Below, piece after piece: positions 9,549-53,623 of a stretch of DNA of 57,270 bases. Every line of letters begins with the position of its first letter. The first letter of the stretch is position 1. The notes under the pieces were generated by a model that searched no databases, had not been told where the DNA came from, and saw only the letters and a program-made list of their open reading frames with translations. Position numbers and translations under genes: made by a program. The stretch is from assembly GCF_030655615.1 (NCBI RefSeq), contig NZ_JAURVJ010000122.1, positions 1 to 57,270 of the forward strand, written 5' to 3'. This stretch comes from Nocardioides sp. (GTDB taxonomy: Bacteria; Actinomycetota; Actinomycetes; Propionibacteriales; Nocardioidaceae).

Positions 9549-9556
9549 AGGTGCAG

Positions 9557-9594: not shown

Positions 9595-9659
9595 CGATAG
9601 TCCCGGGCGAACTGGCCCCTCAAGACCCGTCTCAGGGGCCATTTCGCCCGGGACTATCG
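9595..9659. terminator. Very long hairpin after the FAD oxidoreductase gene
   Basis: A 17-bp perfect stem (CGATAGTCCCGGGCGAA with its complement), one C/T mismatch and a further 8-bp perfect stem (TGGCCCCT) enclose a 13-nt loop. The right arm contains the TAG stop of the FAD oxidoreductase (9654-9656). It separates that gene from the amidohydrolase promoter, so a terminator role is likely, although there is no U-tract. Confidence 0.6.
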
Positions 9660-16121: not shown

Positions 16122-16135
16122 TTGACACGCGTCAA
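16122..16135. promoter_or_regulatory. TTGACACGCGTCAA box
   Basis: This near-palindrome lies in the divergent promoter between the monooxygenase operon and the SDR. It matches the box before the amidohydrolase (9535-9548) in 13 consecutive bases. Probable TetR operator. Confidence 0.55.
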
Positions 16136-16154
16136 CGAATTCCTTGCCCGGATC

Positions 16155-16168
16155 TGGAACAAGTTCTA
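16155..16168. promoter_or_regulatory. Second KstR-like palindrome
   Basis: TGGAAC-AA-GTTCTA fits TnnAACnnGTTnnA except for its slightly weaker left arm, and ends 11 bp before the SDR ATG. It resembles the box at 887-900. Confidence 0.5.
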
Positions 16169-16179
16169 GTTTGAGGGCC

Positions 16180-16923: not shown

Positions 16924-16933
16924 GCTGGGCGTC

Positions 16934-34720: not shown

Positions 34721-35536
34721 TCACCGCACCATGCTGTTGTCGCGGATCGGCGCGAGCCGGGCGCTGACGCTGAGCAGGGTCTCGATGATGAAGTCCTCGC
34801 GGCCGCCCTGGAGCCGGCTGATCGGCACCGCGACGCTGAGGGCGTCGACGGCGTCGTGGGTGAACGGCAGCGCGACGCCGAAGCACCGCACGCCCATGCA
34901 CGACTCCTCGCTCTCGACGGCGTAGCCCATGAGCTCGGCGCGGTCGATGATCTCGAGCACGGCCGCCTTGTCGGTGGTGGTGTGCGGGGTCATCGCGGCG
35001 ATCTCGTCGGGGACCAGGTCGCAGCGCACGTCGGCGGGCTGCTTGGCGAGGATGGCGCGCCCCAGCGAGGTGGCGTACGCCGGGAGGCGGCGGCCGACCG
35101 CGGAGTGCATGCGCAGCGGGTGGACCGACTCGCGCTTGGCCGTGTAGATCACGTGGTCGCCGTCGAGGCGGCCGAGGTGCACGGTCTCCTCGGTCGCGGC
35201 GGCGACCTCCTCCATCACGGGCGTGGCACGCGACAGGATCGGGTCGCCGTCGAGGTAGGCCGAGCTGACCACGAGGGAGTGGATGCCCAGCATGTAGACG
35301 CTGCCGGTCGGGTCGGTCTGCAGCCAGCCCCGGTCGAGCATCGTGCGGAGCAGCGCGTGGAGGCTGCTCTTGGGGATGCTGAGGCGCTGCGAGAGCTGCA
35401 GCTGGGTGCCGGGACCGTGGGCCGCGATCTCGTCGAGGAGGTCCAGCGCGCGCGCCGCGGACTTCACCGGACCGGCGGCGACCGCCGTCGCGTTGGCGCC
35501 GTTGGCTGAGCCGTTGGCGCTCGTCTGGTCCTGCAT
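34721..35536 (-). CDS. IclR family regulator of the uronate genes
   Basis: 271 residues from ATG 35536, with GGGAG a few bases upstream. An Ala/Asn-rich leader is followed by the winged HTH (SAARALDLLDEIA, LQLSQRLSIPKSSLHALLRTMLDRGWL) and the IclR effector domain (TEETVHLGRLDGDHVIYTAKRES, GRRLPAYATSLGRAILA, CMGVRCFGVALPF, ALSVAVPISRL). Divergent from kduI with 176 bp between starts. IclR proteins named KdgR control the KDG pathway in other bacteria, so this is its likely functional counterpart, sensing KDG or a related uronate. The candidate operators are GTTCAC-N4-GTGAAC-like sites in this gap and before the 45.6-kb gene. Confidence 0.85.
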   Translation of the reverse strand: MQDQTSANGSANGANATAVAAGPVKSAARALDLLDEIAAHGPGTQLQLSQRLSIPKSSLHALLRTMLDRGWLQTDPTGSVYMLGIHSLVVSSAYLDGDPILSRATPVMEEVAAATEETVHLGRLDGDHVIYTAKRESVHPLRMHSAVGRRLPAYATSLGRAILAKQPADVRCDLVPDEIAAMTPHTTTDKAAVLEIIDRAELMGYAVESEESCMGVRCFGVALPFTHDAVDALSVAVPISRLQGGREDFIIETLLSVSARLAPIRDNSMVR

Positions 35537-35602
35537 GCGGGAACTCCCTTGGTCGGATAGATGGACCACGAGTTCCATCGTTCAGCGGCCATCCTACCTG
35601 CG

Positions 35603-35712: not shown

Positions 35713-36531
35713 ATGATTCAGGTTCGATATTCGACCTCCCCGTCGAGCGTGGAGACCGCCCACGCCGCGGACCTGCGCGACAACTTCCTCGTGCCGGACC
35801 TCTTCGAGACGGGCGAGGTGCACGGGGTCTACACCCACGACGACCGGCTCGTCGTCGGCGGCGCGGTGCCCGGTGACGAGCAGCTGAGCCTGCCCGCCTG
35901 GGAGGACGTCCTCGGCGGCGCCAGCCACCTCGAGCGCCGCGAGCTCGGCGTCATCAACGTCGGCCAGGCCGGCCACGTGCTGGTCGACGGCGAGAAGTTC
36001 GAGCTCGAGCACCTCGACGGCCTCTACGTCGGCCGCGGCAGCGAGGTCGTCTTCGCCGGACCCGACGCCGCCTTCTACTTCGTGTCGGGCCCGGCCCACG
36101 CGACCTACCCCGCGACGGCCCTGACCCACAAGGACGTCGAGCCGGTGCAGCTCGGCTCGGGTCAGTCGGCCAACGAGCGCAGCCTCTACCGCTACGCCTG
36201 GGGCCAGGAGCTCGAGACCGCCGCCCTCCAGTTCGGCGTCACGGTCATCGCCGACGGCTCGGTGTGGAACACGTTCCCGCCCCACCTGCACGACCGTCGT
36301 ACGGAGATCTACTGCTACGTCGACCTCGCCGAGACCGACCGGGTCTTCCACCTGATGGGCCAGCCCGGCGCGACCCGTCACCTGGTCGTCGCCAACCGCC
36401 AGGCCGTCATCTCGCCGCCGTGGTCGATCCACAGCGGCGCGGGCACCGGCTCCTACGCCTTCATCTGGGCGATGAGCGGCGAGAACAACTGCTACACCGA
36501 CCTGTCGGCCGTGGCGGTGGAGGACCTGTGA
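35713..36531 (+). CDS. kduI: 5-dehydro-4-deoxy-D-glucuronate isomerase KduI
   Basis: 272 residues from ATG 35713. SPSSVETAHAADLRDNFLVPDLF, VHGVYTHDDRLVVGGAVPG, RRELGVINVG, GQSANERSLYRY and the metal-binding cupin stretch TFPPHLHDRRTEIYCYVDL, then PPWSIHSGAGTGSYAFIWAM, match KduI along its full length. It interconverts 5-keto-4-deoxyuronate (DKI) and 2,5-diketo-3-deoxygluconate in the cytosol. First gene of the operon, under the IclR-type operator; coupled to kduD by a 4-nt overlap. Confidence 0.95.
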   Translation: MIQVRYSTSPSSVETAHAADLRDNFLVPDLFETGEVHGVYTHDDRLVVGGAVPGDEQLSLPAWEDVLGGASHLERRELGVINVGQAGHVLVDGEKFELEHLDGLYVGRGSEVVFAGPDAAFYFVSGPAHATYPATALTHKDVEPVQLGSGQSANERSLYRYAWGQELETAALQFGVTVIADGSVWNTFPPHLHDRRTEIYCYVDLAETDRVFHLMGQPGATRHLVVANRQAVISPPWSIHSGAGTGSYAFIWAMSGENNCYTDLSAVAVEDL

Positions 36532-37289
36532 GCGCCTCCTCGCCGTTCGACCTCGCCGGACGCACCGCCGTCGTCACCGGCGCGGGCCGCGGCCTCGGCC
36601 AGGGTGTCGCGCTCGGGCTGGCCCAGGCCGGCGCCGACCTCATCCTCGTCGGACTGCCCGGCAGCCAGGACGAGAGCGCCAAGATGATCGTCGACCTCGG
36701 CCGCGACGCCCAGGTGGTCGACCTCGACATGTCCGACCACGACGCGGTCGCCCGCGTCGGCGCCGAGATCTCCGGCAGCCGCCAGGTCGACATCCTGGTC
36801 AGCAACGCCGGCATCATCGAGCGCGAGGACACCGTCGACCTGACCCCCGAGTCGTGGAACCGGGTCGTCGACATCAACATGTCCGGCCTCTTCTTCCTCA
36901 CCCAGGCGCTCGGCCGCCCGATGGTCGAGCGGGGCAGCGGCAAGATCGTCAGCATCGCGAGCCTGCTCGCCTTCCAGGGCGGCATCCGGGTCATCTCCTA
37001 CGCCGCCAGCAAGCACGGCGTCGCCGGCATCACCAAGGCGCTGGCCAACGAGTGGGGCGGCGCCGGCGTGCAGGTCAACGCCATCGCCCCCGGCTACATG
37101 GCCACCGACAACACCACCGCACTGCGCGAGGACCCCGAGCGATCCAAGGCGATCCTCGACCGGATCCCCGCGGGGCGCTGGGGCACCCCGGAGGACGTGG
37201 CCGGAGCGGCCGTCTTCCTGAGCTCCTCCGCCGCCGACTACGTCAACGGCCACGTCCTGGTCGTCGACGGGGGCTGGATGGCCCGCTAG
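36528..37289 (+). CDS. kduD: 2-deoxy-D-gluconate/2,5-diketo-3-deoxygluconate dehydrogenase KduD
   Basis: 253 residues from GTG 36528. SDR motifs TGAGRGLGQGVALGLAQAGAD, NAGIIEREDTVDL (typical of KduD), Ser in IVSIASLLAFQGG, YAASKHGVAGITKALANEW (YxxxK) and APGYMATDNTTALR. It reduces 2,5-diketo-3-deoxygluconate to KDG with NAD(P)H, following KduI. The KduD-type phrase IIERED and the neighbours support the symbol. Confidence 0.9.
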   Translation: MSASSPFDLAGRTAVVTGAGRGLGQGVALGLAQAGADLILVGLPGSQDESAKMIVDLGRDAQVVDLDMSDHDAVARVGAEISGSRQVDILVSNAGIIEREDTVDLTPESWNRVVDINMSGLFFLTQALGRPMVERGSGKIVSIASLLAFQGGIRVISYAASKHGVAGITKALANEWGGAGVQVNAIAPGYMATDNTTALREDPERSKAILDRIPAGRWGTPEDVAGAAVFLSSSAADYVNGHVLVVDGGWMAR

Positions 37290-37377: not shown

Positions 37378-38475
37378 ATGAAGTTCACATCACGTCCCGC
37401 TGTTGTCCTGGCCAGCCTGTCGCTGGCTGCGGTCGCCCTGGCGGGCTGCAGCGAGGAAGCCGCCGGCGGCGGCAACGACGGCGGGGACGGCGACGCCGCT
37501 GCCGCCTGCGCCCCGGGCGACGTCAAGCTCGTCGGCCAGGTCCGCAACGAGTCCAACCCCTACGAGGCCTCCTGGCTCGACGGCGGCGACGCCTTCGCCG
37601 AGATGGTCGACCTCGAGCAGGACCGCCTGACCTACGACGCCGACTCCACCAAGCAGCAGGAGCAGATCAGCCAGCTCCTCGCCGGCGACACCGAGTGCCT
37701 CGTCATGAACATCCTGCCCAACGGCGACTCCGACACCCCGCCGATCGTCGAGCAGGCCCAGGAGGCGGGCGCCTACCTCGTCACGCAGTGGAACAAGCCG
37801 GCCGACCTCGACGTCGCCGACTACGACCACTGGGTCACCCACCTCACCTACAACGGCGAGGAGTCGGGCAAGCAGATCGGCGACGCCCTCGTCGAGGAGA
37901 TCGGTGGCTCGGGCGGCATCATCGCCCTGCAGGGCATCCTCGACACCGCCGCCGCCAAGGACCGCTTCGCCGGTCTCGAGGCCTCGCTCGCCGAGAACCC
38001 CGACGTGGAGCTGCTCGACCAGCAGACCGCCAACTTCTCCCGCGCCGAGGCGCTCGAGGTCACCAAGACCCTGCTCGCCAAGCACGGCGACGACATCAAG
38101 GGCATCTGGACGGCCAACGACGACATGGCCCTCGGGGCGCTCGAGGCCCTCAAGGCCGCCGGCAAGGAGGGTGAGGTCGCCGTCGTCGGCATCGACGCCG
38201 TGCCCGACGCCCTCACCGCCATCCAGGACGGCACCATGACCGCGACCGTCTCCAGCGACGGCCCGTGGCAGGGCGGCATCGGCCTGGCCATCGGCTACTG
38301 CGTCGCCACCGGCGAGCTCGCCGTCGAGGACATCCCGACCGAGGACCGTGCCTGGTACGCCGAGCAGTTCCTGATCGACGCCGACAACGTCGCCGACTTC
38401 ATCGACCCGGCGACCGACGAGTCCGACTTCGCCTGCGACAACGTCTTCAGCCGTTCGCAGGGCGCGATCTCGTGA
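37378..38475 (+). CDS. CUT2-type sugar ABC transporter substrate-binding lipoprotein
   Basis: 365 residues. A lipoprotein signal (VVLASLSLAAVALAGCSEE, lipobox LAGC) and a Gly/Asp-rich linker precede a type-1 periplasmic fold (RbsB-like): QEQISQLLAGDTECLVMNIL, GGSGGIIALQGILDTAAAKDRFAGLEA, GIWTANDDMALGALEALKAAGKEGEVAVVGIDAVPDAL. AAGAG-rich RBS AAGAGGA is upstream of the ATG. It should deliver a monosaccharide-sized ligand, presumably a uronate or unsaturated uronate, to the permeases encoded next; ligand is inferred from context. Confidence 0.9.
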   Translation: MKFTSRPAVVLASLSLAAVALAGCSEEAAGGGNDGGDGDAAAACAPGDVKLVGQVRNESNPYEASWLDGGDAFAEMVDLEQDRLTYDADSTKQQEQISQLLAGDTECLVMNILPNGDSDTPPIVEQAQEAGAYLVTQWNKPADLDVADYDHWVTHLTYNGEESGKQIGDALVEEIGGSGGIIALQGILDTAAAKDRFAGLEASLAENPDVELLDQQTANFSRAEALEVTKTLLAKHGDDIKGIWTANDDMALGALEALKAAGKEGEVAVVGIDAVPDALTAIQDGTMTATVSSDGPWQGGIGLAIGYCVATGELAVEDIPTEDRAWYAEQFLIDADNVADFIDPATDESDFACDNVFSRSQGAIS

Positions 38476-41048: not shown

Positions 41049-42041
41049 ATGAGCACCCCCGTCATCACCAAGCCCGCCTCGGAGGCCGCCATCCGGCGCG
41101 GCCCCACCCCGGCCCAGCGGCTCACGTCGTTCATGCCGGTCATCGCCCTCGTCGCGCTGCTCGCCGCCCTGACGCTGGCCGACTCGAGCTTCCTCACGCA
41201 GAAGAGCCTCACCGCCGCGGTGCGTACGTCGGCCCCGCTGGTGGTGCTGGCGGCGGGCGCGACGCTCGTGGTCCTCTGTGGCGGCATCGACCTGTCGATC
41301 GCCGCCCTCTGCTCGCTGTCGACCGTCTTCTTCGCGATGTGGCTGCCCGACCTCGGCGCCCTCACCACGCTGGCGGTCATCATCGGCGCCGGCCTGGTCG
41401 GCGCCCTGCAGGGCATCGTCCACGTCGTCCTGCGCATCCCGTCGTTCATCGTGACGCTGGGCGGGATGAGCATCTTCTCCGCCGTCGCGCTCGTCGTCTC
41501 CGACGCCGGGCCGATCCGGGTCGTCGACCGCGAGGCCACCAGCTGGCTGACGACCTACGTCGGCGGCTACGTGCCGATGGCGTTCGCCGTCGCCGTGATC
41601 GTCGTGGCCGTGGTCGCGCTGGTCCTCAAGCTCACGCCGCTGCAGAGCTACGTCCACGCCACCGGCTACTCCGAGTCGGCGGCCCGGCTGGCCGGCACGC
41701 CGGTCGACCTGGTCAAGATCGGCGCGTTCACCGTCTCCGGCGCCTGCGCCGGCCTGGCCGCCGTCATGCTCGTGTCGCGCAACTTCAGCGGCAGCCCCAC
41801 GATGGCCGACAACCTGCTGCTGCCCGCCGTCGCGGCCATCGTGGTCGGTGGCACCGCGATCACCGGGGGCCACGGCTCGCTGTGGCGCTCGCTCGTGGGC
41901 GCCCTCGTCATCACCCTGCTCCGGGTCGGCCTGCCCATCGTCGGCGTCCCGTCGGCCTACGAGCAGATCCTCTACGGCGCGATCATCGTCGTCGCCGTGG
42001 CGCTGACGCTCGACCGCTCGAAGGTGCTGGTCATCAAGTAG
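41049..42041 (+). CDS. Sugar ABC transporter permease (RbsC family) 2
   Basis: 330 residues from ATG 41049, 4 bp after the ATPase stop. Membrane segments and the motifs VVLAAGATLVVLCGGIDLSIAAL, IPSFIVTLGGMSIFSAVAL, AVAAIVVGGTAITGGHGSLW identify the RbsC/BPD_transp_2 family. It complements the first permease. Confidence 0.9.
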   Translation: MSTPVITKPASEAAIRRGPTPAQRLTSFMPVIALVALLAALTLADSSFLTQKSLTAAVRTSAPLVVLAAGATLVVLCGGIDLSIAALCSLSTVFFAMWLPDLGALTTLAVIIGAGLVGALQGIVHVVLRIPSFIVTLGGMSIFSAVALVVSDAGPIRVVDREATSWLTTYVGGYVPMAFAVAVIVVAVVALVLKLTPLQSYVHATGYSESAARLAGTPVDLVKIGAFTVSGACAGLAAVMLVSRNFSGSPTMADNLLLPAVAAIVVGGTAITGGHGSLWRSLVGALVITLLRVGLPIVGVPSAYEQILYGAIIVVAVALTLDRSKVLVIK

Positions 42042-42111: not shown

Positions 42112-43623
42112 ATGACCACCACTGTCGGCTCCACCACCCACCGCGCCGAGCTCCTCCCCGCCGTCCGCGACTTCCTCTCCTCGCCCAAGCAGCTGCTCAT
42201 CGGCGGCGAGTGGGTCGACGCTGCCGACGGCGGGCTGTTCGACACCGTCGACCCCGCCACCGAGGAGGTGCTGGTCCAGGTCGCCCAGGGTTCTGCGGTC
42301 GACGCCGATCGCGCCGTCCAGGCCGCCCGCCTGGCCTTCGAGTCGCCGTCGCCCTGGTCGCAGTTCACCCCGCGCGAGCGCTCCCACCTGCTGTGGCGCA
42401 TCGGCGACCTCATCGACGAGCAGTCCGAGGAGTTCGCCCAGCTCGAGTCGCTCGACAACGGCAAGAGCCTCGAGTCGGCCCGGGGCGACGTCGGCGTCGC
42501 CGCCGAGCTGTTCCGCTACTTCGCCGGCTGGGCCACCAAGATGGAGGGCACCACCATCCCGATGTCGGTGCCCGGCCGCGAGTTCCACGCCTACACCCGC
42601 CGCGAGGCGATCGGCGTCGTTGCCGGCATCGTGCCGTGGAACTTCCCGCTGACGATGGCCGCCTTCAAGATCGTCCCGGCGATCACCGCCGGCAACACCG
42701 TGATCCTCAAGCCGGCCGAGCAGACCCCGCTCACCGCGCTGCGCCTGGGCCAGCTGCTGCTCGACGCGGGCCTGCCCGCGGGCGTCGTCAACATCCTGCC
42801 GGGCTTCGGCGACGCGGGTGCCGCGCTCGTCGACCACGCCGGCGTCGACAAGGTCGCCTTCACCGGCAGCACCGAGGTCGGCAAGAAGATCGCGGCCGGC
42901 GCGTCCAAGAACCTCAAGAAGGTCTCGCTCGAGCTCGGCGGCAAGGCCCCCAACATCATCTTCGCCGACGCCGACCTCGACGCCGCGATCGCCGGTGCCG
43001 CCCTGGCCGCCTTCTTCAACGAGGGCCAGTGCTGCGTCAACGGCTCGCGCCTCTACGTCCAGCGCTCGGTCTTCGACCAGGTCGTCGAGGGCGTCGCGGC
43101 CGCTGCCCGCAAGATCACCGTCGGCAACGGCTTCGACTCCACCACCACCATGGGCCCGCTCGTCTCGCAGGAGCAGCACGAGAAGGTCATCGGCTACGTC
43201 CGCGGCGCCGTCGCCGACGGCGCGACGCTGGCCGCCGGCAGCGCCGAGCCCGCGGCCGACCAGGGCTACTTCTTCGCCCCGACCGTCATCACCGACGTGA
43301 CGGAGGAGATGGCGATCCAGACCGACGAGATCTTCGGCCCGGTCGTCACGGCCATCCCGTTCGACACCGAGGACGAGGTCGTCGCGGCCGCCAACAACAC
43401 CGTCTACGGCCTCGCCGCCGGCGTCTGGTCGCGCGACCTGGGCACCGCCCACCGCGTGGGCTCCAAGCTCCGCGCCGGCACGGTCTGGCTCAACACCTGG
43501 CACGCCGACGACGTCACCCTCCCGCGCGGTGGCTTCAAGCAGTCCGGCTGGGGTCGCGAGCTCGGCTCGTTCGGCCTCGACGACTACACCGAGCTCAAGA
43601 CCGTCATCGCCGAGCTCCGCTGA
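42112..43623 (+). CDS. Aldehyde dehydrogenase of the uronate operon
   Basis: 503 residues. Rossmann-region PWNFPLTMAAFKIVPAITAGNTVILKPAEQTP, FTGSTEVGKKI, the general base in LELGGKAPN and the catalytic Cys308 in NEGQCCVNGSRLYV, with EIFGPVVTAIPF near the end. NAD(P)-dependent oxidation of an aldehyde to acid. A poly-C spacer (42055-42075) and a strong AAGGAAGG RBS precede it. In this operon it could oxidise a dialdose, a 2,5-dioxovalerate-like intermediate or glyceraldehyde; a link to the copper oxidase at 45.6 kb is discussed in the findings. Coupled to the aldolase by tgatg. Confidence 0.9.
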   Translation: MTTTVGSTTHRAELLPAVRDFLSSPKQLLIGGEWVDAADGGLFDTVDPATEEVLVQVAQGSAVDADRAVQAARLAFESPSPWSQFTPRERSHLLWRIGDLIDEQSEEFAQLESLDNGKSLESARGDVGVAAELFRYFAGWATKMEGTTIPMSVPGREFHAYTRREAIGVVAGIVPWNFPLTMAAFKIVPAITAGNTVILKPAEQTPLTALRLGQLLLDAGLPAGVVNILPGFGDAGAALVDHAGVDKVAFTGSTEVGKKIAAGASKNLKKVSLELGGKAPNIIFADADLDAAIAGAALAAFFNEGQCCVNGSRLYVQRSVFDQVVEGVAAAARKITVGNGFDSTTTMGPLVSQEQHEKVIGYVRGAVADGATLAAGSAEPAADQGYFFAPTVITDVTEEMAIQTDEIFGPVVTAIPFDTEDEVVAAANNTVYGLAAGVWSRDLGTAHRVGSKLRAGTVWLNTWHADDVTLPRGGFKQSGWGRELGSFGLDDYTELKTVIAELR

Positions 43624-44267
43624 TGTCCGGCGTCATGGGCCACCGGGTGATCCCGGTGGTCGTCCTCGACGACCCCGGTCGTGCCGACGACCTCGGGGCG
43701 GCGCTGGTCGCCGGCGGGCTGCCGGTGGCCGAGGCCACCTTCCGCTCGCCCGAGGCCGTGGCCGTCCTGCGCCGGCTCGCCACCAACCGTGACCTGCTCG
43801 TGGGGGCCGGCACCGTGATCACCGCGGCCCAGGTCGACCTCGCGCACGACGCGGGAGCGCGCTTCGTGGTCTCCCCGGGTCTCAGCGCGGCCGTCGTACG
43901 CCGGTGCCAGGAGCTCGGGCTGCCGGTGTTCCCCGGCGTCAGCTCGGCGACCGAGATCATCACCGCGCTCGACCTCGGCCTCGACACCGTGAAGTTCTTC
44001 CCGGCCGAGGCCAACGGTGGCCTCGCGAGCGTCAAGGCCCTGGCCGCGGCGTTCCCGCAGGTCCGCTTCATCCCGACCGGCGGCATCACCGCCGACACGG
44101 CCCCGACCTACCTCGCCCACCAGGCCGTCGCCGCCGTCGGCGGCAGCTGGATGGTCGCGCCCGACCTGCTCGCCTCCGGGCAGTGGGACGAGGTGACCGC
44201 GCGGTGCGCCGCGACGGTCGCCGCCACCTCCACCGACAGCCCCGTCCTGCAAGGAGCACCCGCATGA
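43623..44267 (+). CDS. eda: KDPG/KDG aldolase
   Basis: 214 residues from ATG 43623. GHRVIPVVVLDDP, VAEATFRSPEAV (catalytic Glu), LLVGAGTVITAAQV, FVVSPGLSAAVV, FPGVSSATEII, the Schiff-base Lys124 in TVKFFPAEANGG, and FIPTGGITADTAPTYL make up a class I 2-keto-3-deoxy-6-phosphogluconate aldolase. With the kinase that follows it splits KDPG to pyruvate and glyceraldehyde-3-phosphate, the last step of this pathway. Confidence 0.9.
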   Translation: MSGVMGHRVIPVVVLDDPGRADDLGAALVAGGLPVAEATFRSPEAVAVLRRLATNRDLLVGAGTVITAAQVDLAHDAGARFVVSPGLSAAVVRRCQELGLPVFPGVSSATEIITALDLGLDTVKFFPAEANGGLASVKALAAAFPQVRFIPTGGITADTAPTYLAHQAVAAVGGSWMVAPDLLASGQWDEVTARCAATVAATSTDSPVLQGAPA

Positions 44268-45361
44268 TCGAGACCCGTCCCGTCGAGGAGTGCGAGCTCG
44301 ACATCGTCGCCCTCGGCGAGGTGATGCTCCGCCTCGACCCCGGCGAGGGCCGGATCCGCACCGCGCGCCGGTTCGAGGCGTGGGAGGGCGGCGGCGAGTA
44401 CAACGTCGCCCGCGGCATGCGCAAGGTCTTCGGGCTGCGGGCCGGCGTCGTCACCGCCCTGGCCGACAACGAGATCGGCCGGCTGGTCGAGAACCTCATC
44501 ATGCAGGGCGGTGTCGACACGTCGATGATCCGCTGGGCGTCCTACGACGGCATCGGCCGCTCGGTCCGCAACGGGCTCAACTTCACCGAGCGCGGCTTCG
44601 GCGTGCGCGGGGCGGTCGGGGTCTCCGACCGTGCCCACACGGCCATCAGCCAGCTCGCGCCGGGCACCGTCGACTGGGACGACCTGTTCGGCCGCCGCGG
44701 GGTGCGCTGGCTGCACACGGGCGGCATCTACGCCGCACTGTCCGAGAACGCCGCCGCCGTCGCCGAGGAGGCCATGGCGGCCGCGCAGAAGCACGGCACC
44801 GTCGTGTCGTTCGACCTCAACTACCGGCCCAGCCTCTGGGCCGGGATCGGTGGCCAGGAGTTCGCCCGCGACGTCAACACGCGCCTCGCGAGCCACGTCG
44901 ACGTGATGATCGGCAACGAGGAGGACTTCACCGCCTCGCTCGGCTTCGACGTCGAGCACGTCGACGAGCACCTGCGCGAGCTGCCCATGGACAGCTTCGC
45001 CGCGATGGTCGGCACGGTCGCCGAGAAGATGCCATGGTTCAAGGTCGTCGCGACCACGCTGCGGGGCGTCCACAGTGCCAGCGACAACGACTGGCAGGCC
45101 ATCGCCTGGTCCCCCGAGACCGGGGTCCTCCAGTCGACCGCGCGCGACCACCTCGCGGTCTACGACCGGGTCGGCGGTGGCGACGGGTTCGCCTCGGGCC
45201 TCGTCTACGGCCTGCTCGAGGGCGAGGAGCTCCAGACCTGTCTCGACTACGGCGCCGCCCACGGCGCCCTGGCGATGACGACCCCCGGCGACACCTCGAT
45301 GGCCTCACGGGCCGAGGTCCTCGCGCTCGCCGGCGGCGGAAGCGCGCGCGTGCGTCGCTGA
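44264..45361 (+). CDS. kdgK: PfkB-family sugar kinase, probable 2-keto-3-deoxygluconate kinase
   Basis: 365 residues from ATG 44264 (RBS AAGGAG). ALGEVMLRLDPGEGRIRTARRFEAWEGGGEYNVARG is the N-terminal PfkB signature with the KdgK-type GGxxxNVA. VVSFDLNYRPSLW and the catalytic DRVGGGDGFASGLVYGL (Asp of GGGD) follow. The position after eda and kduID argues for KDG as substrate. It is the last gene before a strong terminator, so the operon ends here. Confidence 0.85.
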   Translation: MIETRPVEECELDIVALGEVMLRLDPGEGRIRTARRFEAWEGGGEYNVARGMRKVFGLRAGVVTALADNEIGRLVENLIMQGGVDTSMIRWASYDGIGRSVRNGLNFTERGFGVRGAVGVSDRAHTAISQLAPGTVDWDDLFGRRGVRWLHTGGIYAALSENAAAVAEEAMAAAQKHGTVVSFDLNYRPSLWAGIGGQEFARDVNTRLASHVDVMIGNEEDFTASLGFDVEHVDEHLRELPMDSFAAMVGTVAEKMPWFKVVATTLRGVHSASDNDWQAIAWSPETGVLQSTARDHLAVYDRVGGGDGFASGLVYGLLEGEELQTCLDYGAAHGALAMTTPGDTSMASRAEVLALAGGGSARVRR

Positions 45362-45472: not shown

Positions 45473-45584
45473 GAAGTTCTTGACTCTGATGTGACGCTCG
45501 CCATACGTTCGTCGGAGCGAGGGGAGTGCCCCGGCGGTCTCCGCCGGCCCCCGAGTCGACCCGAGCCCAACCCAAGGGATGTTC

Positions 45585-48500
45585 ATGAACGTGCTTCGCA
45601 GGTCTGTCCGCGTGCGTGTCGCCAAGCGCTTCCGGCGCTCGGCCACGCACCTCCTCGCCCTGGTCGTCGGCCTGGTCGTGGCGCTCCCGGTGCTCGCCAC
45701 CGTGACCGCCACGCCGGCCTCGGCGGCCCCCGCCGACGACGGGATCCTCCGGGTCCTGCTCTTCTACAAGCCCAACTTCCACGCCTCCAACGTCCAGGCC
45801 CGTCAGGCCATCCGCGACCTCGCCGCCGAGTTGGGCACGCAGTACGCCCAGCCCGTCGAGATCCAGGAGACCGACGACCCGGCCGTGTTCACCCCGGCCA
45901 ACCTCGCCACCAAGGACACGCTGGCCTTCGCGCAGACGGGCGGCGTGCTCTTCAACGAGGAGCAGCGCACCGCGCTCGAGGCCTACATCCGCGGCGGCGG
46001 CGGCTTCATGGGCATGCACTACACCGGCTGGTCGGTCGGGCAGAGCGAGCACGACGTCAACCCGTTCTACAACCGCCTCGTGGGCGCCGTCTCCGAGGGC
46101 CACCCCGAGAACCCCGCCGTCCGGCCGGGCCGGGTGTTCGTCAAGGACACCGCGAGCCCGCTGACGCAGGGCATCCCGGCCGAGTTCACGCGCAGCGACG
46201 AGTGGTACGACTGGGTGGTCAACCCGGCCCCCAACGTCCACACGCTGCTCGAGGCCGACGAGTCGTCCTACGTCACCGACGCCAGCGGCGGCCGCAACGG
46301 CACCTCGCACCCAGTCACCTGGTGCCAGACGATCGACGCCGGCCGCTCCTGGTACTCCGGCATGGGCCACGAGGGCACCGCGTTCTCCGAGCCCAACATC
46401 CGCACCCAGCTGCGCCTCGGCCTCGCCTACTCCGCGGGCCTCCTCGCGGCCGACTGCTCGCCGCCGGCCAAGGACGTCGCCGGCGGCTGGAGCGGCGTGA
46501 CGCCGTGGCCCCTCGTCGCGATCAACGCCTCGCTCACCGCTGACGGCATGGTCCAGACCTTCGGCAGCACCCCCACCACCTGCAACGACACCACCCCCTA
46601 CGACTGGACCGGCAACGGCTGCGTCTCGCAGGGCGGCCAGTTCGAGTTCGACGTGTGGGACCCCGCGACCCCGCGCACCCTCGCCAACGTCAACCAGGGC
46701 CGGCACCCCAACAACACCTACACCGACATGTTCTGCTCGATGCAGGTGCAGAACCCCCGTCGCCGCACGGTGATGACCGTCGGCGGTGACGACGGCCTGG
46801 GCGAGAACGCCCCCAACGACGCCGCCATCGGCGTCACCAGCTACTCCAAGAACAAGGGCCTGCAGAACGAGGCCCCGATGAACTTCCCGCGGTGGTACCC
46901 CACCGGCACGACCATGCCCAACGGCGACATCGTCGTCCAGGGCGGCAGCAGCCGCGGCGGCCCCGGTGGCCCCGGCGTGCTCACCCCCGAGATCTTCACC
47001 CCCGACGCCGGCTCCGGCTGGCGGCTGCTCAACGGCGCCACCAGCTCGGCGGCCTACGGCGACGGCGGTGCCGACCACCCCGGCGCCGACGAGAATCGCT
47101 GGTGGTACCCCCGCGCCTTCGTCACCCCGGGCAGCGGCACCCTCTTCAACATCACCGGCACGCAGATGTACGAGCTCGACCCGGCCGGCAACGCCGGTGA
47201 GGGCGCGCTGACCCTGCGCGGCACCCTGCCGACCAACGTGTCCAACCAGGGCGCGCTCGGCAACCCGGTCGGCGCCACGTCGACCGCCGCGATGTACGCC
47301 CCCGGCAAGATCCTCCAGGTCGGTGGCGGCTGGTGGGCCAACGGCGGCGGCCCCGCCGGTGCCAAGGCCGGCTTCACCGTCGACATCACCGGCGGCACGG
47401 CCAACCCCGTCGTCACGCCGATCGCGCCGATGAAGTTCGCCCGGCACTGGCCGACCGCGACCGTCCTCCCCAACGGCGAGGTCCTCGTGACCGGCGGCAG
47501 CCGTGACAACAACGGCAACGGCGGCTACGTCACCACGGCCGAGATCTGGAACCCCGACAGCGGCCAGTGGCGCACCGTCGAGGCGCCCTACGAGCACGCG
47601 CGGCTCTACCACTCGACCGCCCTGCTGCTGCCCGACGGTCGTGTCATGGTCGGCGGTGGCGGTGCCCCCGGCCCGCGCAACTACACCGACGTCGAGTACT
47701 ACTCCCCGTCCTACCTCTACGACGGCAACCAGGCCGCCGCCCGGCCCGAGATCACCTCGGCGCCCAAGAAGATCGGCTACAACGGCACCTTCGGCATCCA
47801 GGCCTCCGGTCCGGTCGCCAAGGTCACCCTCGTCCGCAACGGCTCGGTGACCCACGGCTTCAACAACGACCAGAACTTCCAGCAGCTCGACTTCACCCAG
47901 TCGGGCAACAACCTGACGATCAAGGCCCCCACCGACGGCACCTACGCCCCTCCGGGCGCCTACATGCTGTTCGTCTGGAACGCCGACGGCACCCCGTCGG
48001 CCGCCAAGATCCTCGACATCGACCCCGCGGTGAAGACCGACGACCACGCGCCCAAGCTCGTGGACCAGTTCGAGTACCCCCGCATCCCGGCCGACTGGCG
48101 CGGCGGCAACCCCGCTGCTCTCGTCGACGTCGCCGCCGGCGGCGGCCGGATGGCCCCCTGGACCGTCAAGAACCCGGTCCAGCTGGTCCGCAGCACCGGC
48201 GCCAGCCAGGGCGGGCTCGGCCAGGTCGGCTACCACCTCGGCCTGGGCGCCTCCGGCAGCCTGGAGCGCAGCATCACCGGTCTCGACCCGGGTCGCTCCT
48301 ACCGGATCTCGCTCAAGTACGCCCGTGACAGCCGCTCCGCCGGCACCGTCGACGGCAAGGCTGCCGTCAAGGTCGGCAGCCTCGACGCCACCCTCACCGC
48401 CACGACGGCCAACCCGTCCCAGAACGGCAACGGGCGGCTCACCACGTTCAAGACCTACGTCGACACGTTCACCGCGTCGGCCCGGTCCGAGACGCTCACC

Positions 48501-51500
48501 CTCTCCGCGCCCGGCGGCGCCCCCGGCGTGATGATCGACGACCTCGTCATCACCGCCGTCGACCCGGGCCTGTCCGACGTGCCGATCCACTACGAGCTCG
48601 ACGAGGGCACCGGCACGACGGCCGCCAACACCGGCACCGACTCCTCCGTCGGCCCGGCGGTCCTGACCGGCACCACCGGCTGGTCCGACAACGGCATCTT
48701 CGGCACGTCGGTCAACCTGCCCGGCGGCTCCAACGCCAGTGCCGTCGACCTGCCCGACAACCTGCTCCAGACCGCGACCGACTTCACCACGTCGTTCTGG
48801 GTCCGCCCCGACACCAAGGGCAACTGGATCGGCATGTTCCACCTCGGCGACGGCCTCGGCGACGCCGGCAGCTTCTTTCAGATCCAGATGCAGACGCAGG
48901 CGGCCGGCGCCACCGGCGTGGCGGCGACCTTCAAGAAGAAGGGCAGCAACGTCCAGGAGCGCGTCTTTGCGACGCCGGTCAAGGACGTGACCGCCAACCA
49001 GTGGAACCACGTGGTCTTCACCCGCTCCGGCGCGACCGGGACGCTCTACCTTGACGGCGTCCAGATCGCGAGCCGCAACAACCTGACGATCACCATGGCC
49101 GACCTCGGCCCGACGGCCAACAACTGGCTGGGTCGCAACGGCTACCCCGACCCCGCCTACGACGGCCTGATGGACGACGTGCGCCTCTACACCTCGTCGC
49201 TGACCGCCGCCGACGTCGCGGCGCTCTACGCCGACGGCACGGCCAAGCGCACGACCACGACCGTCACGGTCTCCCCGGCGTCGCCGTCCCCGTTCGCCGA
49301 GCCGCTCACGGTCTCGGGCACGGTCCGCGACGAGGCCATCCAGCCCGCCACGGGCACCGCCGAGCTCTGGGTCGACGCGGCCCGCGTCGGTGAGCCCGTC
49401 GCCCTGGTCGCCGGCAACGTCTCCTTCCCGGCGCTGACCCTGCCCCCGGGCCCGCACCAGATCGAGATCCGCTACCTCGCCGCCGCCGGCTTCCGCAGCT
49501 CGACGGCCACGGTGACCCACACGGTCTCGCGTCCGCCGCCGGGCAGCGGCGTACCGATCCGCTACGCCTTCGACGAGGGCACCGGGACGACGGCGGCCAA
49601 CACCGGCTCCGACACCTCGGTCGGGGCGGCCACGCTCCAGGGCGCGACCACCTTCACCCCCACGGGCAAGTTCGGGCCCGGGATCAACCTGCCCGGCGGC
49701 GCTTCGACGACCAACAACCAGGTCCGCCTGCCCGACAACATCGAGGCCGGCATGGACGAGGAGTTCTCGGTCTCGGTCTGGGCCCGTCCGGACGCGCTGC
49801 CCAACTGGGTGCCGCTCCTCCAGATCGGCAGCAGCACGGACACGTTCTTCCTGCTGCAGTCCTCCACCCAGGCTGCCGGCGCCACCGGCTTCGCGGCCAC
49901 GTTCAAGGCGCCCGGCAACGCGGCGCAGGAGCGACTGACCCTCGGTGCGGGCAACGACCTGCCCCTCAACGAGTGGACGCACGTCGTCTTCACCATGAGC
50001 GGCAGCACCGGCCGTCTCTACTTCGACGGCGAGCTGGTCGGCACCCGTGCCGACTTCACGCTGGGCATCGGCGACGTCGGGGTCGGTGGCAACACCACCG
50101 CCAACTTCCTCGGCGGCACCAGCTGGCCCGACCCGCGGTTCGACGGCATGGTCGACGACTTCCGGATGTACGGCTACGAGCTGACCGGTGACCAGGTCGA
50201 CGAGCTCTACGCCGGCCCGCCGGTCACCAACGCCGCACCGGTCGGCGTGGCCGACGCCTACAGCACCGACCAGGACGAGGCCCTCACGGTCGTCGCCCCG
50301 GGCGTGCTGACCAACGACACCGACGCCGACGCCGACACGCTGACCGCGACCGGGCTCACCCAGCCCGCCCACGGCGTCGTGACCCTGGCCCCGACCGGGG
50401 CGTTCACCTACACCCCGACCGCGGGCTACTCCGGCACCGACACGTTCACCTACAAGGCCAACGACGGCACCGTCGACTCCGCCGCGACGACGGTCACCAT
50501 CACCGTCGCCGAGGTCACGGGTCCGACCAACGCCACGCCGGTCGCGGTCTCCGACACCTTCGTCACCGACGAGGACGTGGCCCTCACGGTCGCGGCCCCG
50601 GGTGTCCTCACCAACGACACCGACGCCGACGGCGACGACCTGACGGCTGCGGCTGTGACCCAGCCGGCCCACGGCGACGTGACCCTCGGTGCCGACGGGG
50701 CGTTCACCTACACCCCCGACGCCGGGTTCGTCGGAGTCGACAGCTTTACCTACGCCGCCGACGACGGGACGGTCGACTCCGCCCCGGCCACGGTGAGCAT
50801 CACGGTCGAGGAAGCCGGGCAACCGTCACCCAACCAGGCCCCGACGGCTGTCGCCGACGTCTTCCTGACGCAGCAGGACGTGCCGCTGACGGTCGCCGCC
50901 CCCGGTGTGCTCGGCAACGACGCCGACCCCGACGGGGACGTGCTCACCGCCGTCGCCGCCAACCAGCCGGCCCACGGACAGGTGGTGCTGAGCGGGAACG
51001 GGTCGTTCATCTACACCCCTGACCGCGGCTTCAGCGGCTACGACATGTTCCTCTACAAGGTCAACGACGGCACCGTCGACTCCGGCCTCACCACGGTGAC
51101 CATCGCGGTCGACGCGGTGCCGCCGGCGGCGACGGCGGTCGCGGCAGCGATCGCGCCGTTCACCTACGGTCAGCGCGGCGTCCTCTCCACGGCGATGGCC
51201 CCGGCCACCGCCACCGGTGAGGTCACCGTGCTCCTCGGCACCCGCACCATCGCCGGAGGCACGCTGACCGACGGCCAGTCGCGCATCGTCCTGCCGGTGG
51301 GCTCGGTCCCGCCGGGTGCCCAGGTGCTCACGCTGCGCTACGCCGGCGACGACGACCACGCGGCCTCGACGACGACCGTCCCGGTCACCGTTGCCAAGGC
51401 AGCACCGACCCTCAAGGTCACCGCACCCAAGCAGGTGCGCAAGGGTCAGCGGCCCACGGTCCGGGTGCAGCTCACCGCACCCGGTGGCGTGCCCGTCACC

Positions 51501-51680
51501 GGTCGGGTCTCGGTCAAGGTCGGTGGGGTCACGCTCACCGGTACCGTCCGCAACGGTGCGGTGGCCCTCCAGCTGCCGAGGGCCGCCAAGGTCGGCTCCC
51601 TCAAGGTGACCGTGACCTACCTCGGCAGCACCCTGGCGAGGACGGCGACCAAGACGGTCACCGTCCGCGTCACCCGCTGA
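45585..51680 (+). CDS. Large secreted ThuA-copper radical oxidase-LamG mosaic protein
   Basis: 2031 residues. ATG 45585 is chosen because AAGGG lies 6 nt before it; ATG 45579 abuts AAGGG. Signal peptide to about 50 (LLALVVGLVVALPVLA...ASA). ThuA-like domain about 52-285 (ILRVLLFYKPNFHASN, GGGGFMGMHYTGW, MGHEGTAF). Galactose-oxidase-like propeller about 300-710 and DUF1929 domain about 718-815. All expected copper ligands of this AA5-type fold are visible: Cys384 (DMFCS), Tyr438 (RWYPT), Tyr675-His676 (RLYHS), His757 (VTHGF); the stacking Trp of galactose oxidase is Ser (GGSS). Then a galactose-binding-like region (about 820-990), LamG about 1000-1215, Ig-like about 1220-1315, LamG about 1322-1545, three cadherin/VCBS-like repeats (about 1548, 1648, 1749) and two Ig-like domains to the end. 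No sorting signal. It should oxidise an extracellular carbohydrate or aldehyde with O2; substrate unknown. Confidence 0.9.
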   Translation: MNVLRRSVRVRVAKRFRRSATHLLALVVGLVVALPVLATVTATPASAAPADDGILRVLLFYKPNFHASNVQARQAIRDLAAELGTQYAQPVEIQETDDPAVFTPANLATKDTLAFAQTGGVLFNEEQRTALEAYIRGGGGFMGMHYTGWSVGQSEHDVNPFYNRLVGAVSEGHPENPAVRPGRVFVKDTASPLTQGIPAEFTRSDEWYDWVVNPAPNVHTLLEADESSYVTDASGGRNGTSHPVTWCQTIDAGRSWYSGMGHEGTAFSEPNIRTQLRLGLAYSAGLLAADCSPPAKDVAGGWSGVTPWPLVAINASLTADGMVQTFGSTPTTCNDTTPYDWTGNGCVSQGGQFEFDVWDPATPRTLANVNQGRHPNNTYTDMFCSMQVQNPRRRTVMTVGGDDGLGENAPNDAAIGVTSYSKNKGLQNEAPMNFPRWYPTGTTMPNGDIVVQGGSSRGGPGGPGVLTPEIFTPDAGSGWRLLNGATSSAAYGDGGADHPGADENRWWYPRAFVTPGSGTLFNITGTQMYELDPAGNAGEGALTLRGTLPTNVSNQGALGNPVGATSTAAMYAPGKILQVGGGWWANGGGPAGAKAGFTVDITGGTANPVVTPIAPMKFARHWPTATVLPNGEVLVTGGSRDNNGNGGYVTTAEIWNPDSGQWRTVEAPYEHARLYHSTALLLPDGRVMVGGGGAPGPRNYTDVEYYSPSYLYDGNQAAARPEITSAPKKIGYNGTFGIQASGPVAKVTLVRNGSVTHGFNNDQNFQQLDFTQSGNNLTIKAPTDGTYAPPGAYMLFVWNADGTPSAAKILDIDPAVKTDDHAPKLVDQFEYPRIPADWRGGNPAALVDVAAGGGRMAPWTVKNPVQLVRSTGASQGGLGQVGYHLGLGASGSLERSITGLDPGRSYRISLKYARDSRSAGTVDGKAAVKVGSLDATLTATTANPSQNGNGRLTTFKTYVDTFTASARSETLTLSAPGGAPGVMIDDLVITAVDPGLSDVPIHYELDEGTGTTAANTGTDSSVGPAVLTGTTGWSDNGIFGTSVNLPGGSNASAVDLPDNLLQTATDFTTSFWVRPDTKGNWIGMFHLGDGLGDAGSFFQIQMQTQAAGATGVAATFKKKGSNVQERVFATPVKDVTANQWNHVVFTRSGATGTLYLDGVQIASRNNLTITMADLGPTANNWLGRNGYPDPAYDGLMDDVRLYTSSLTAADVAALYADGTAKRTTTTVTVSPASPSPFAEPLTVSGTVRDEAIQPATGTAELWVDAARVGEPVALVAGNVSFPALTLPPGPHQIEIRYLAAAGFRSSTATVTHTVSRPPPGSGVPIRYAFDEGTGTTAANTGSDTSVGAATLQGATTFTPTGKFGPGINLPGGASTTNNQVRLPDNIEAGMDEEFSVSVWARPDALPNWVPLLQIGSSTDTFFLLQSSTQAAGATGFAATFKAPGNAAQERLTLGAGNDLPLNEWTHVVFTMSGSTGRLYFDGELVGTRADFTLGIGDVGVGGNTTANFLGGTSWPDPRFDGMVDDFRMYGYELTGDQVDELYAGPPVTNAAPVGVADAYSTDQDEALTVVAPGVLTNDTDADADTLTATGLTQPAHGVVTLAPTGAFTYTPTAGYSGTDTFTYKANDGTVDSAATTVTITVAEVTGPTNATPVAVSDTFVTDEDVALTVAAPGVLTNDTDADGDDLTAAAVTQPAHGDVTLGADGAFTYTPDAGFVGVDSFTYAADDGTVDSAPATVSITVEEAGQPSPNQAPTAVADVFLTQQDVPLTVAAPGVLGNDADPDGDVLTAVAANQPAHGQVVLSGNGSFIYTPDRGFSGYDMFLYKVNDGTVDSGLTTVTIAVDAVPPAATAVAAAIAPFTYGQRGVLSTAMAPATATGEVTVLLGTRTIAGGTLTDGQSRIVLPVGSVPPGAQVLTLRYAGDDDHAASTTTVPVTVAKAAPTLKVTAPKQVRKGQRPTVRVQLTAPGGVPVTGRVSVKVGGVTLTGTVRNGAVALQLPRAAKVGSLKVTVTYLGSTLARTATKTVTVRVTR
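50230..51120 (+). repeat. Three tandem cadherin/VCBS-like repeats (about 300 bp each)
   Basis: Units begin near 50230, 50530 and 50833 with N-A/T/Q-A/T-PV/T-x-V-A/S-D and contain APGVLTNDTDAD and QPAHGxVTL. High DNA similarity between the units indicates recent duplication inside the secreted oxidase gene. Confidence 0.8.
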
Positions 51681-52006: not shown

Positions 52007-53623
52007 GTGCTCGTCCTCGTCCTCGTCGTGGTGGCGCTCGTGCTCGGGCTGGCCCCGCCGGCGAGCGCGCACGCCTCGGTGGTGTCGACCGACCCCGCCG
52101 CCGGCGCCGTGCTCGCCGACGCCCCCGAGCGGGTCCGGTTCACGTTCAGCGAGCCGGTCGCCACGGTGCCCGACGGGGTCAAGGTCTATGACGCCGCCGG
52201 CGAGCTCGTCGCCTCGTCGGCGACCGCCGACGGGGTCGAGCTCGCCATCGCCCTCGAGGGCGAGGTCGGCGACGGCACGCTGATCGTCACCTACCGGATC
52301 GTCTCCAAGGACGGCCACCCCGTCAGCGGGTCGCTGATCTTCTCGGTCGGCGCACCCAGCCCGACCGTCGAGGAGCCCCCACGCGACGACGCCGCCTCGA
52401 CCGCGGTGCCGCGCACCCTCAGCCTGGTCCGCTTCGTCGGCTACGTCGGACTGTTCCTCGGAGCCGGTCTCCTGTGGTTCGCCGTGCTGTTCCTGCCGTC
52501 CGACCGGGCCGCCGACACGTCGCGCCGCCGCGTGGTGCTCGGCGCCCGTCTGGGCGGCGGCGTCGCACTGGTCGGCTGGCTGCTCGCCCTGCCCGTCACG
52601 GCGTCTTACCAGGTGGGCGGGGGAGTGACCTGGTCCGCCCTCGCCGCGACCGAGTACGTCGTCGCCGCGGCGGTCGCGGTCGGGCTCGTCGTGGCCCTGG
52701 TGCTGCTCGGGTCCGGCGCGCCGGGACGACGGCGGGGCTGGGTGGCCTTGGCCGCAGCGGTCGTCGCGACGACCGCCCCCGCGCTGACCGGTCACACCCG
52801 CGCGGCGACGCCCGAGGTCCTGGCCGTCGCCGCCGACCTCGTGCACCTGCTCGCCGGCAGCGTCTGGCTCGGCGGTCTCGTCGGGCTCGGCCTCGTGCTC
52901 GCCGACCTGTCGGGCCGCGGGACGATGGCGGGTGAGGTGCTGGCCCGCTTCTCCGGGGTGGCGGCCGGGATCCTGGCGGTCCTCGTGGTCACCGGGTCGC
53001 TGCTCGCGTGGCGCGTCCTCGGCTCGTGGAGCGGCCTCGTCGACACCACCTACGGCAAGCTGCTGCTCGTCAAGATTGGTGCGGCCCTCGTCGTCATCGC
53101 GATCGCCGCGTTCAACCGCTTCCGGCTGCTGCCGCGCCTGCAGGCGGCCGCCCACCGCAAGGACCGGCGTGCGGGCGCCGGCCTCGTCGTCCGCTCGGTC
53201 GTCGCCGAGAGCGCGGTGCTCGTGGTGGTCCTGCTCCTGACCGGCTTCCTCGTCGACCGCAACCCCGAGGGCGACCCCGTCGTCCAGGCCTCCGCGACGG
53301 CGCGCCCCACCTCGCGCACCGCGCAGCTCGACGCCATCGAGGTGCGCGCCACCCTCGGCCGACAGACCCCCGGCCCGACCAGCGTCACCCTCGAGCTGCT
53401 CGACCCGGCCGGCGAGCCGACCGAGGGCTACGCCGCCCCGCAGGCGACGTTCGCGTCCGACGACGTCGACCTCGGCGAGGTCCCGCTCCGCAACATCGGG
53501 CCGGGCGTCTACACCGCCGAGGTTGTCGTACCGGCTCCCGGCGACTGGCGGCTCAAGGTCGTGCTGCCGACCAGCGAGGTCGACGTACCGACGTCGACGC
53601 TGGAGTTCGACGTCCTCGGCTGA
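52007..53623 (+). CDS. CopC-CopD-YtkA-like fusion, copper import/resistance protein
   Basis: 538 residues from GTG 52007. Signal peptide, then HASVVSTDPAAGAVLADAPERVRFTFSEPV (CopC; the mature N-terminal His of AHAS and the His of SKDGHPVSG are the copper ligands). About 130-440 is CopD with eight membrane helices, and the last 110 residues (LDAIEVRATLGRQTPGPTSVTLEL...GPGVYTAEVVVPAPGDW) form a YtkA/CopC-like extracytoplasmic domain. A CTG at 51962 would give a longer Arg-rich start (NHDEHRRAPSRRTS) and is possible but unusual. CopC/CopD proteins move copper inward, so it may load copper for the adjacent oxidase. Confidence 0.9.
   Translation: MLVLVLVVVALVLGLAPPASAHASVVSTDPAAGAVLADAPERVRFTFSEPVATVPDGVKVYDAAGELVASSATADGVELAIALEGEVGDGTLIVTYRIVSKDGHPVSGSLIFSVGAPSPTVEEPPRDDAASTAVPRTLSLVRFVGYVGLFLGAGLLWFAVLFLPSDRAADTSRRRVVLGARLGGGVALVGWLLALPVTASYQVGGGVTWSALAATEYVVAAAVAVGLVVALVLLGSGAPGRRRGWVALAAAVVATTAPALTGHTRAATPEVLAVAADLVHLLAGSVWLGGLVGLGLVLADLSGRGTMAGEVLARFSGVAAGILAVLVVTGSLLAWRVLGSWSGLVDTTYGKLLLVKIGAALVVIAIAAFNRFRLLPRLQAAAHRKDRRAGAGLVVRSVVAESAVLVVVLLLTGFLVDRNPEGDPVVQASATARPTSRTAQLDAIEVRATLGRQTPGPTSVTLELLDPAGEPTEGYAAPQATFASDDVDLGEVPLRNIGPGVYTAEVVVPAPGDWRLKVVLPTSEVDVPTSTLEFDVLG

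Follow-up and report, generated by a model that had tools for sequence, protein, structure and literature searches.

Copper radical oxidases (CROs) of the galactose oxidase (GO) type include GO itself (AA5_2; structure 1gof and the bacterial structures 9g43 and 9g8h), Streptomyces GlxA (4unm), and FgrAldOx (9n3u). To our knowledge, few roles are known for bacterial AA5 enzymes outside GlxA. GlxA and the AA5 phylogeny are treated in sections of PMC3543389 and PMC11267884. On the metabolic side, the closest described systems are the kduI-kduD loci for glycosaminoglycans (GAG) and pectin, where a polysaccharide lyase and a GH88/GH105 enzyme stand ahead of the enzymes that lead from 4-deoxy-5-keto-uronate (DHU) to 2-keto-3-deoxygluconate (KDG). 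The passages of PMC12838403 on the sources of DHU name UGL, OGL, and YteR and make no mention of copper. The levoglucosan pathway, outlined in PMC7676230 as oxidation, elimination, hydration, and reduction, also eliminates from an oxidized sugar but begins with a dehydrogenase.

Here, a 57,270-nucleotide stretch of Nocardioides DNA (contig NZ_JAURVJ010000122.1; hereafter the window) was analyzed. It encodes a protein of 2,033 aa in which a ThuA domain is fused to a CRO (ThuA-CRO). The protein has the fold of GO (Z 41 to 42, 2.4 to 2.5 Å over about 457 to 461 residues) and all of its copper and cross-link residues, but the aligned part is only 28 to 30% identical, the position of GO Trp290 is nonaromatic, and a ThuA domain precedes the oxidase. 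It shares the WYPT motif of GlxA and, with FgrAldOx, a second-sphere Trp immediately before the cross-linked Tyr (PMC13094651); both of those enzymes, in the descriptions available, are free of ThuA and have other roles. The ThuA-CRO loci contain the same DHU-to-KDG enzymes as the lyase loci, with CRO and an aldehyde dehydrogenase (ALDH) in place of lyase and GH88/GH105. This conserved uronate operon directly upstream, which the initial annotation of the gene missed, is the main clue to function. We give an even chance to the reading that the protein is secreted and catalyzes the initial reaction of an oxidative route that joins the DHU/KDG pathway.

The initial annotation had called the architecture one not recognized as described. 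Consistent with this, no description of a ThuA-CRO fusion, or of a CRO feeding DHU, was found among the matches listed for the open-licence literature. A search of the same literature for galactose oxidase together with KduI gave no paper holding both, and in the matching parts of PMC4765114 ThuA and galactose oxidase are named in unrelated places. Two further papers containing both terms deal, judging by their titles, with deer antler peptides and tea polyphenols.

Linkage of the CRO gene to a uronate operon

A scan of GTDB contigs yielded 67 related loci. The CRO is encoded at 64 of these, and this many relatives at 64 to 78% identity exclude a chance architecture. The survey of ThuA fusions to AA5-like domains that had been proposed for this gene thus returned a conserved actinobacterial family. 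Its hosts include Nocardioides, Cellulomonas, Promicromonospora, Actinoplanes, Catellatospora, Asanoa, Blastococcus, Kribbella, Nonomuraea, Herbidospora, and others.

In the window, KduI and KduD, which mark the DHU pathway, both score above their curated cutoffs (Table 1). All seven genes for KduI, KduD, the substrate-binding protein (SBP), two permeases, the ATPase, and ALDH were present in the fetched flanks of 57 of the 64 CRO loci, and at least two of them at 61; the ABC permease and ATPase genes were present at 59 to 61 loci. Of the three remaining loci, L070 lies on a contig that begins inside the operon and retains ALDH, aldolase, and kinase genes, and L042 and L093 lack the operon. 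CopC-CopD was found in the fetched flanks of 39 loci.

The order of the genes varies. At least four arrangements were observed, with the CRO gene after the ALDH gene, after the kinase gene, divergent from kduI beyond the IclR gene, or upstream of IclR and kduI. At four loci of the divergent type (L107 and L119 to L121), the seven operon proteins are just 51 to 67% identical to those of the window. Because the link between CRO and the kduI operon was kept through rearrangement of gene order, it is unlikely to be passive. In one genome (G214), a 727-aa frame (L108 8171-10354) consists of a truncated KduI fused to CopC-CopD, and the 20-kb stretch around it lacks the genes by which the two are separated in relatives.

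TABLE 1 Coordinates of the ThuA-CRO gene, its domains and site residues, and the neighboring genes in the window
Feature	Position	Strand	Basis or remark
IclR-type regulator	34721..35578	-	Pfam, NCBIfam
KduI, 5-dehydro-4-deoxy-D-glucuronate isomerase	35719..36531	+	NF002091, 362 bits (cutoff 250)
KduD, 2-dehydro-3-deoxy-D-gluconate 5-dehydrogenase	36546..37289	+	TIGR01832, 343 bits (cutoff 339)
Sugar ABC SBP, RbsB/YtfQ-like	37378..38475	+	Pfam, NCBIfam; no equivalog
ABC permease, ATPase, permease	38490-39485, 39482-41044, 41049-42041	+	ORFs; families named from sequence
ALDH	42112..43623	+	PF00171, 575 bits
KDPG/KHG aldolase	43641..44267	+	PF01081 and TIGR01182, above cutoff
PfkB-type sugar kinase, probable KDG kinase	44300..45361	+	PF00294
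ThuA-CRO multidomain protein, 2,033 aa	45579..51680	+	ORF, Pfam
N-terminal export-type segment with RR motif, basic then hydrophobic, Ala-rich	45579..45728	+	By eye from sequence
ThuA domain (PF06283)	45750..46430	+	Pfam; fold match 4jqs, Z 21.7
CRO: kelch propeller and E-set domain	46467..48020	+	Pfam, phmmer, model superposition
Cys386, putative cross-link Cys	46734..46736	+	Motif DMFC as in GO; motif assignment, no alignment; 62/62
Trp439-Tyr440, putative second-sphere Trp and cross-link Tyr	46893..46898	+	Alignment to GO and GlxA; invariant
Ser458, at GO Trp290 position	46950..46952	+	Profile alignment
Tyr677-His678, predicted Cu ligands	47607..47612	+	Alignment; 62/62
His759, predicted Cu ligand	47853..47855	+	Alignment; 62/62
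CBM-like beta-sandwich	48033..48593	+	Model pLDDT 80.9; Foldseek
LamG domain 1	48606..49244	+	Pfam
Ig-like Big_3_5 domain	49266..49526	+	Pfam; first of three stretches in the scan, the one placed
LamG domain 2	49542..50213	+	Pfam
Three cadherin/tandem-95 repeats, optional across relatives	50223..51128	+	Pfam, NCBIfam
C-terminal Ig-like repeats	51156..51677	+	Bounds read from sequence
CopC-CopD copper protein	52007..53623	+	PF04234, PF05425

Co-occurrence of CRO and KduI in genomes

To set the linkage against genomes not chosen by the operon, samples of 98 genomes of the genus Nocardioides and 325 genomes of the class were used. In the genus sample, CRO was present in 11 genomes and KduI above cutoff in 12, and all 11 CRO genomes were among those 12; the KduI of G214 is partial and falls below the cutoff. 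In the class sample, CRO was present in 8 genomes and KduI above cutoff in 24, including 8/8 of the CRO genomes. The association gave Fisher P values of 1e-13 (genus) and 3e-10 (class), which ignore kinship. In each co-occurring genome, CRO and KduI share a contig and lie no more than 9.5 kb apart.

The enzymes that stand at other kduI loci were mostly missing from the CRO genomes. Within the genus sample, none of the 11 genomes with CRO gave a GH88/GH105 match (PF07470), and neither did the genome under study (94.9% complete, 235 contigs). In the sole Nocardioides genome of the sample with KduI above cutoff and no CRO, G154, GH88 and KduI are 3 kb apart, and their contig also encodes a heparinase-type lyase. 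In the class sample, 10 of the 16 genomes with KduI and without CRO have GH88, eight of these within 7.1 kb of KduI. Among 20 genomes searched, 17 of them with CRO, the models for PL22 (PF14583) and pectate lyase (PF00544) matched none and Hepar_II_III (PF07940) matched G154 only, leaving 0/17 CRO genomes with any of the three (other lyase families were not searched). A lyase-fed kduI in the CRO genomes is therefore not supported by these families or by PF07470.

When up to 20 kb around KduI was inspected, ALDH homologues were present at 6/6 loci with CRO, at 0/9 loci with GH88 close by, and at 0/6 loci with neither. A genome with GH88 on another contig (G412) also had no ALDH near KduI. Such a pattern would follow if the CRO route alone produced a C6 aldehyde. 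The ALDH of the window exceeded no NCBIfam equivalog cutoff among the 25 matches listed.

Loci L100 to L105 carry kduI-kduD with neither CRO nor ALDH nearby, in genomes without a GH88 match. The neighbors of L102 (RNase J and a DHDPS-like protein) and the scanned frames of L101 gave no clue to the source of the substrate.

Domain architecture and predicted fold

The reading frame starts two codons upstream of the in-frame ATG at 45585 used in the initial annotation; residue numbers here refer to the 2,033-aa frame (P0001), in which P0002 numbers are increased by 50. Pfam matches and structure models place ThuA at the N terminus, followed by the CRO, a domain resembling CBMs, a pair of LamG domains, and repeats of the Ig/cadherin type. 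ThuA was matched at residues 58-284 (158 bits; cutoff 33.4) and GO-like_E_set at residues 722-813 (81 bits; cutoff 25), and Glyoxal_oxid_N remained under its cutoff (31.9 versus 37.5). The other Pfam matches were Laminin_G_3 (two), cadherin/Big_9 (three), and Big_3_5. Galactose oxidases of the PDB were retrieved by phmmer (1gof, 3e-32).

An AlphaFold2 model of residues 51-818 (pLDDT 81.8, pTM 0.80) contains the propeller and E-set fold that is the hallmark of AA5 enzymes and superimposes on 1gof with Z 41.2 (2.4 Å, 461 residues); its N-terminal part superimposes on the ThuA-like 4jqs with Z 21.7 (3.4 Å, 226 residues). Domain search and structure prediction, both suggested when the gene was first annotated as ThuA joined to a GO-like copper radical enzyme with LamG and cadherin repeats, thus bear out that reading. 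For residues 819-1005, which have no Pfam match, Foldseek placed the model near CBM families 4, 16, 22, 35, and 61 at moderate scores; the top rank was a domain of an insecticidal Cry protein, and other beta-sandwiches score similarly.

The order ThuA-CRO-CBM-like-LamG-LamG is found in 20/20 short forms (1,300 to 1,500 aa) and 41/41 long forms (>1,700 aa), and ThuA occurs together with CRO at at least 62 of the 64 loci. Only the long forms (41/64 loci) contained the first Big module and the cadherin modules. The core of the family is therefore these five domains, and the cadherin and Big repeats are optional. An RR motif precedes the core at 43 of the 53 loci with a located core start, and the protein is probably secreted, judging by its N-terminal segment.

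Two genomes (G205 and G117) have two ThuA-CRO copies each. In the genome under study, a second CRO-like match (G000:C105:11249-12376; 36% identity, in a 1,029-aa frame) covers query residues 384-764 only.

Copper site and second sphere

Cys386, Tyr440, Tyr677, His678, and His759 are invariant in 62/62 aligned sequences, the query included. By sequence, the AA5 set of a Cys-Tyr cross-link pair, an axial Tyr, and two His is complete, as had been noticed when the gene was first annotated. In a strong profile alignment, Tyr440 falls on GO Tyr272 and Trp439-Tyr440 on Gly-Tyr272. The position of GO Trp290 is occupied by Leu in 53 sequences, Val in 4, Ser in 3, and Ile in 2 and is never aromatic, in contrast to AA5_2 galactose oxidases.

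The Ser reported at that position in the initial annotation is present (Ser458), but the loss of a stacking Trp read from it is the less likely interpretation and was rejected, Trp439-Tyr440 being part of a GlxA-like WYPT motif. The PRWYPT segment pairs with the WYPT of GlxA and, in the W288A mutant structures, with AYPT, which puts Trp439 on GlxA Trp288. This pairing rests on the motif: the local scores of 11.9 and 5.6 bits are weak, and the segment is rich in repeats and can be aligned to other parts of GlxA as well. In FgrAldOx, the stacking Trp509 is directly ahead of Tyr510 (PMC13094651, in the part describing the site). Trp439 is invariant in the family alignment and probably supplies the stacking Trp beside the cross-linked Tyr, as in GlxA. 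Because a Trp directly precedes the cross-linked Tyr, as in GlxA and FgrAldOx, the second sphere appears to be of the aldehyde oxidase/GlxA type and not of the galactose oxidase type. Orthology to GlxA is ruled out, since the NCBIfam GlxA model (NF052501) matched residues 577-814 with 130 bits, far below its cutoff of 800.

Overall, the picture of an unusual extracellular sugar-oxidizing enzyme holds for a probably secreted AA5-type CRO with intact site residues, a ThuA domain, and modules of carbohydrate-binding type. It does not hold for the missing Trp or for the weight placed on the cadherin array, of which none was found in any short form.

The ThuA domain and its relatives

Both the gathering score and the fold place the N-terminal domain in PF06283. 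His97, His125, Glu158, Tyr160, Asp177, Glu178, His194, Trp198, and His214 (P0002 numbering) were kept in 25/25 ThuA domains compared. No settled reaction for the ThuA family was found among the matches listed for the open-licence literature.

Of six ThuA paralogs scanned, five (L014, L015, L017, L019, and L030) are fused to a glucose/sorbosone dehydrogenase (GSDH) domain, and the sixth (L026) is ThuA alone. These ThuA-GSDH proteins of Nocardioidaceae resemble ThuA-CRO in having ThuA ahead of a sugar oxidoreductase, in line with a role on oxidized sugars; they differ in having GSDH, and in some cases PKD, in place of CRO, and their ThuA domains are only 29 to 38% identical. Closer relatives of the domain, 74 to 77% identical, occur without CRO at loci L095 to L097, the identity being 76 to 77% at L095 and L096. 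The L095 protein (9536-12070) consists of ThuA and two LamG domains, and that of L096 (9668-12064) has a similar end.

Proposed route and alternatives

From the architecture, the intact site residues, the conserved operon, and the genome co-occurrence, we infer the role of ThuA and every substrate and reaction as follows. The CBM-like and LamG domains would anchor the protein to a glycan, where the CRO would convert the C6 hydroxyl of a hexose with gluco or galacto configuration to an aldehyde, with formation of H2O2. DHU retains the C2 and C3 configuration of glucose- and galactose-type sugars, and the substrate is for this reason probably of one of these two configurations. The C6 carbonyl would acidify H5, and the group on O4 could then be lost by beta-elimination, leaving a 4,5-unsaturated C6-aldehyde sugar. 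Aldehydes made by galactose oxidase at C6 are reported to form the alpha,beta-unsaturated aldehyde chemically, under heat and alkali (PMC3388858); a catalyst would therefore be useful, and the fused ThuA is a candidate eliminase, most likely as a helper of O4 loss. The ABC transporter may import the unsaturated sugar, and ALDH would oxidize its C6 aldehyde to a carboxylate, which opens to DHU. KduI, KduD, the sugar kinase, and KDPG aldolase would then convert DHU to pyruvate and glyceraldehyde-3-phosphate. Since oxidation of the unsaturated aldehyde would give DHU, no enzymes beyond a single ALDH and the kduI-kduD-kinase-aldolase set would be needed, which is what the window encodes, and the CRO would fill the place held by polysaccharide lyase and GH88/GH105 at other kduI loci. 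In its most specific form, this route would be run by a single secreted oxidative lyase: its CRO would act on a neutral glycan to generate the C6 aldehyde, and its ThuA would eliminate the O4 substituent, so that neutral hexoses become unsaturated sugars for kduI-kduD; we regard that form as doubtful.

Several observations weigh against the oxidative route. Six of the 16 class genomes with KduI and without CRO also lack GH88, which implies further sources or uses of KduI. In that sample, GH88 does occur in two of the eight CRO genomes (G283 and G352), megabases from KduI, and the difference in GH88 between KduI genomes with and without CRO is not significant there (P = 0.19). A kduI-kduD-SBP-ABC-ALDH operon of the same type is present in G492 (L118 9029-17748), a genome in which GH88 is 367 kb distant and the CRO part has no match. 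This weakens ALDH as a strict marker of CRO. We take the large ORF beside that operon to resemble a GH92-type mannosidase and identified no substitute oxidase there. At the CRO loci, KDPG aldolase is beside only 31 of 64 and the kinase beside only 30, the PfkB kinase of the window falls below the KDG-kinase equivalog cutoffs, and the CRO gene of L042 is not flanked by any gene of the operon. The ThuA-only paralogs at L095 to L097 likewise have no kduI-operon gene in their flanks. Finally, the Trp-Tyr arrangement is shared with glyoxal/aldehyde oxidases and GlxA, and aldehydes may for this reason be the true substrate of the CRO.

A variant of the oxidative route falls somewhat short of an even chance. 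ThuA may bind or isomerize oxidized sugars, or act on 3-keto sugars, with elimination being spontaneous or intracellular. The link drawn between thuAB operons and 3-keto derivatives of disaccharides (PMC4765114, in the part concerning thuAB) is in line with this, as are the fusions of ThuA to GSDH and the capacity of the elimination to proceed chemically; the heat and alkali that the reported reaction required, the conserved core of the domain, and its near-constant pairing with CRO argue for a catalytic part in the elimination.

The CRO might instead take C6 to the acid outside the cell, with ThuA as a uronate lyase or KduI as a hexuronate isomerase and with ALDH serving elsewhere. The aldehyde oxidase-like second sphere would suit this scheme, E. 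coli KduI has been proposed to convert galacturonate and glucuronate (PMC3578941, in the portion on KduI), and some galacturonic acid is described in galactose oxidase reactions in a section of PMC3388858. However, the hexuronate route needs a dehydratase, which is postulated but unnamed in that portion of the E. coli paper and is not among the identified genes of the window's operon, and CRO loci typically have ALDH close to KduI. We therefore consider oxidation to the acid unlikely.

Modification of the organism's own glycan or cell wall, as a GlxA-like role, with an adjoining operon that recycles the product or is unrelated, is improbable. The partial match to the GlxA model, the common Trp-Tyr motif, and the large surface modules fit such a role, but the score is far from the GlxA cutoff, catabolic operon genes are present at 61/64 loci, and KduI is present in 11/11 CRO genomes of the genus sample. 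That the enzyme is chiefly an H2O2 producer, for peroxidases, lignin, or antagonism, with merely coregulated neighbors, is very improbable: CROs are known as H2O2 suppliers and CopC-CopD often flanks the gene, but the kduI-kduD-ALDH link and the gap in G214 would be left unexplained.

Other neighboring genes

In L049, the gene at 16126-17304, downstream of CRO, precedes CopC-CopD and presumably encodes a YcnI-like protein; at other loci there is a gap of about 1.2 kb at this position. The window also encodes an Abhydrolase_10 protein (PF20091, 349 bits) at 31072-32352, for which the 67 related loci gave no match.

Implications for the family

ThuA-CRO represents a known class of enzyme in a new architecture. 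Strong genomic evidence ties it to an established pathway, by way of the oxidative route proposed here. The conserved operon joins bacterial AA5 enzymes and ThuA to the mapped DHU-to-KDG pathway, and both functions thereby become directly testable. It suggests that neutral hexoses may enter the uronate pathway without lyases. If the oxidative lyase is real, it would open glycans in a new manner, one that parallels polysaccharide lyases but requires no uronic acid, and the ThuA family would gain a defined chemistry, carbonyl-activated elimination.

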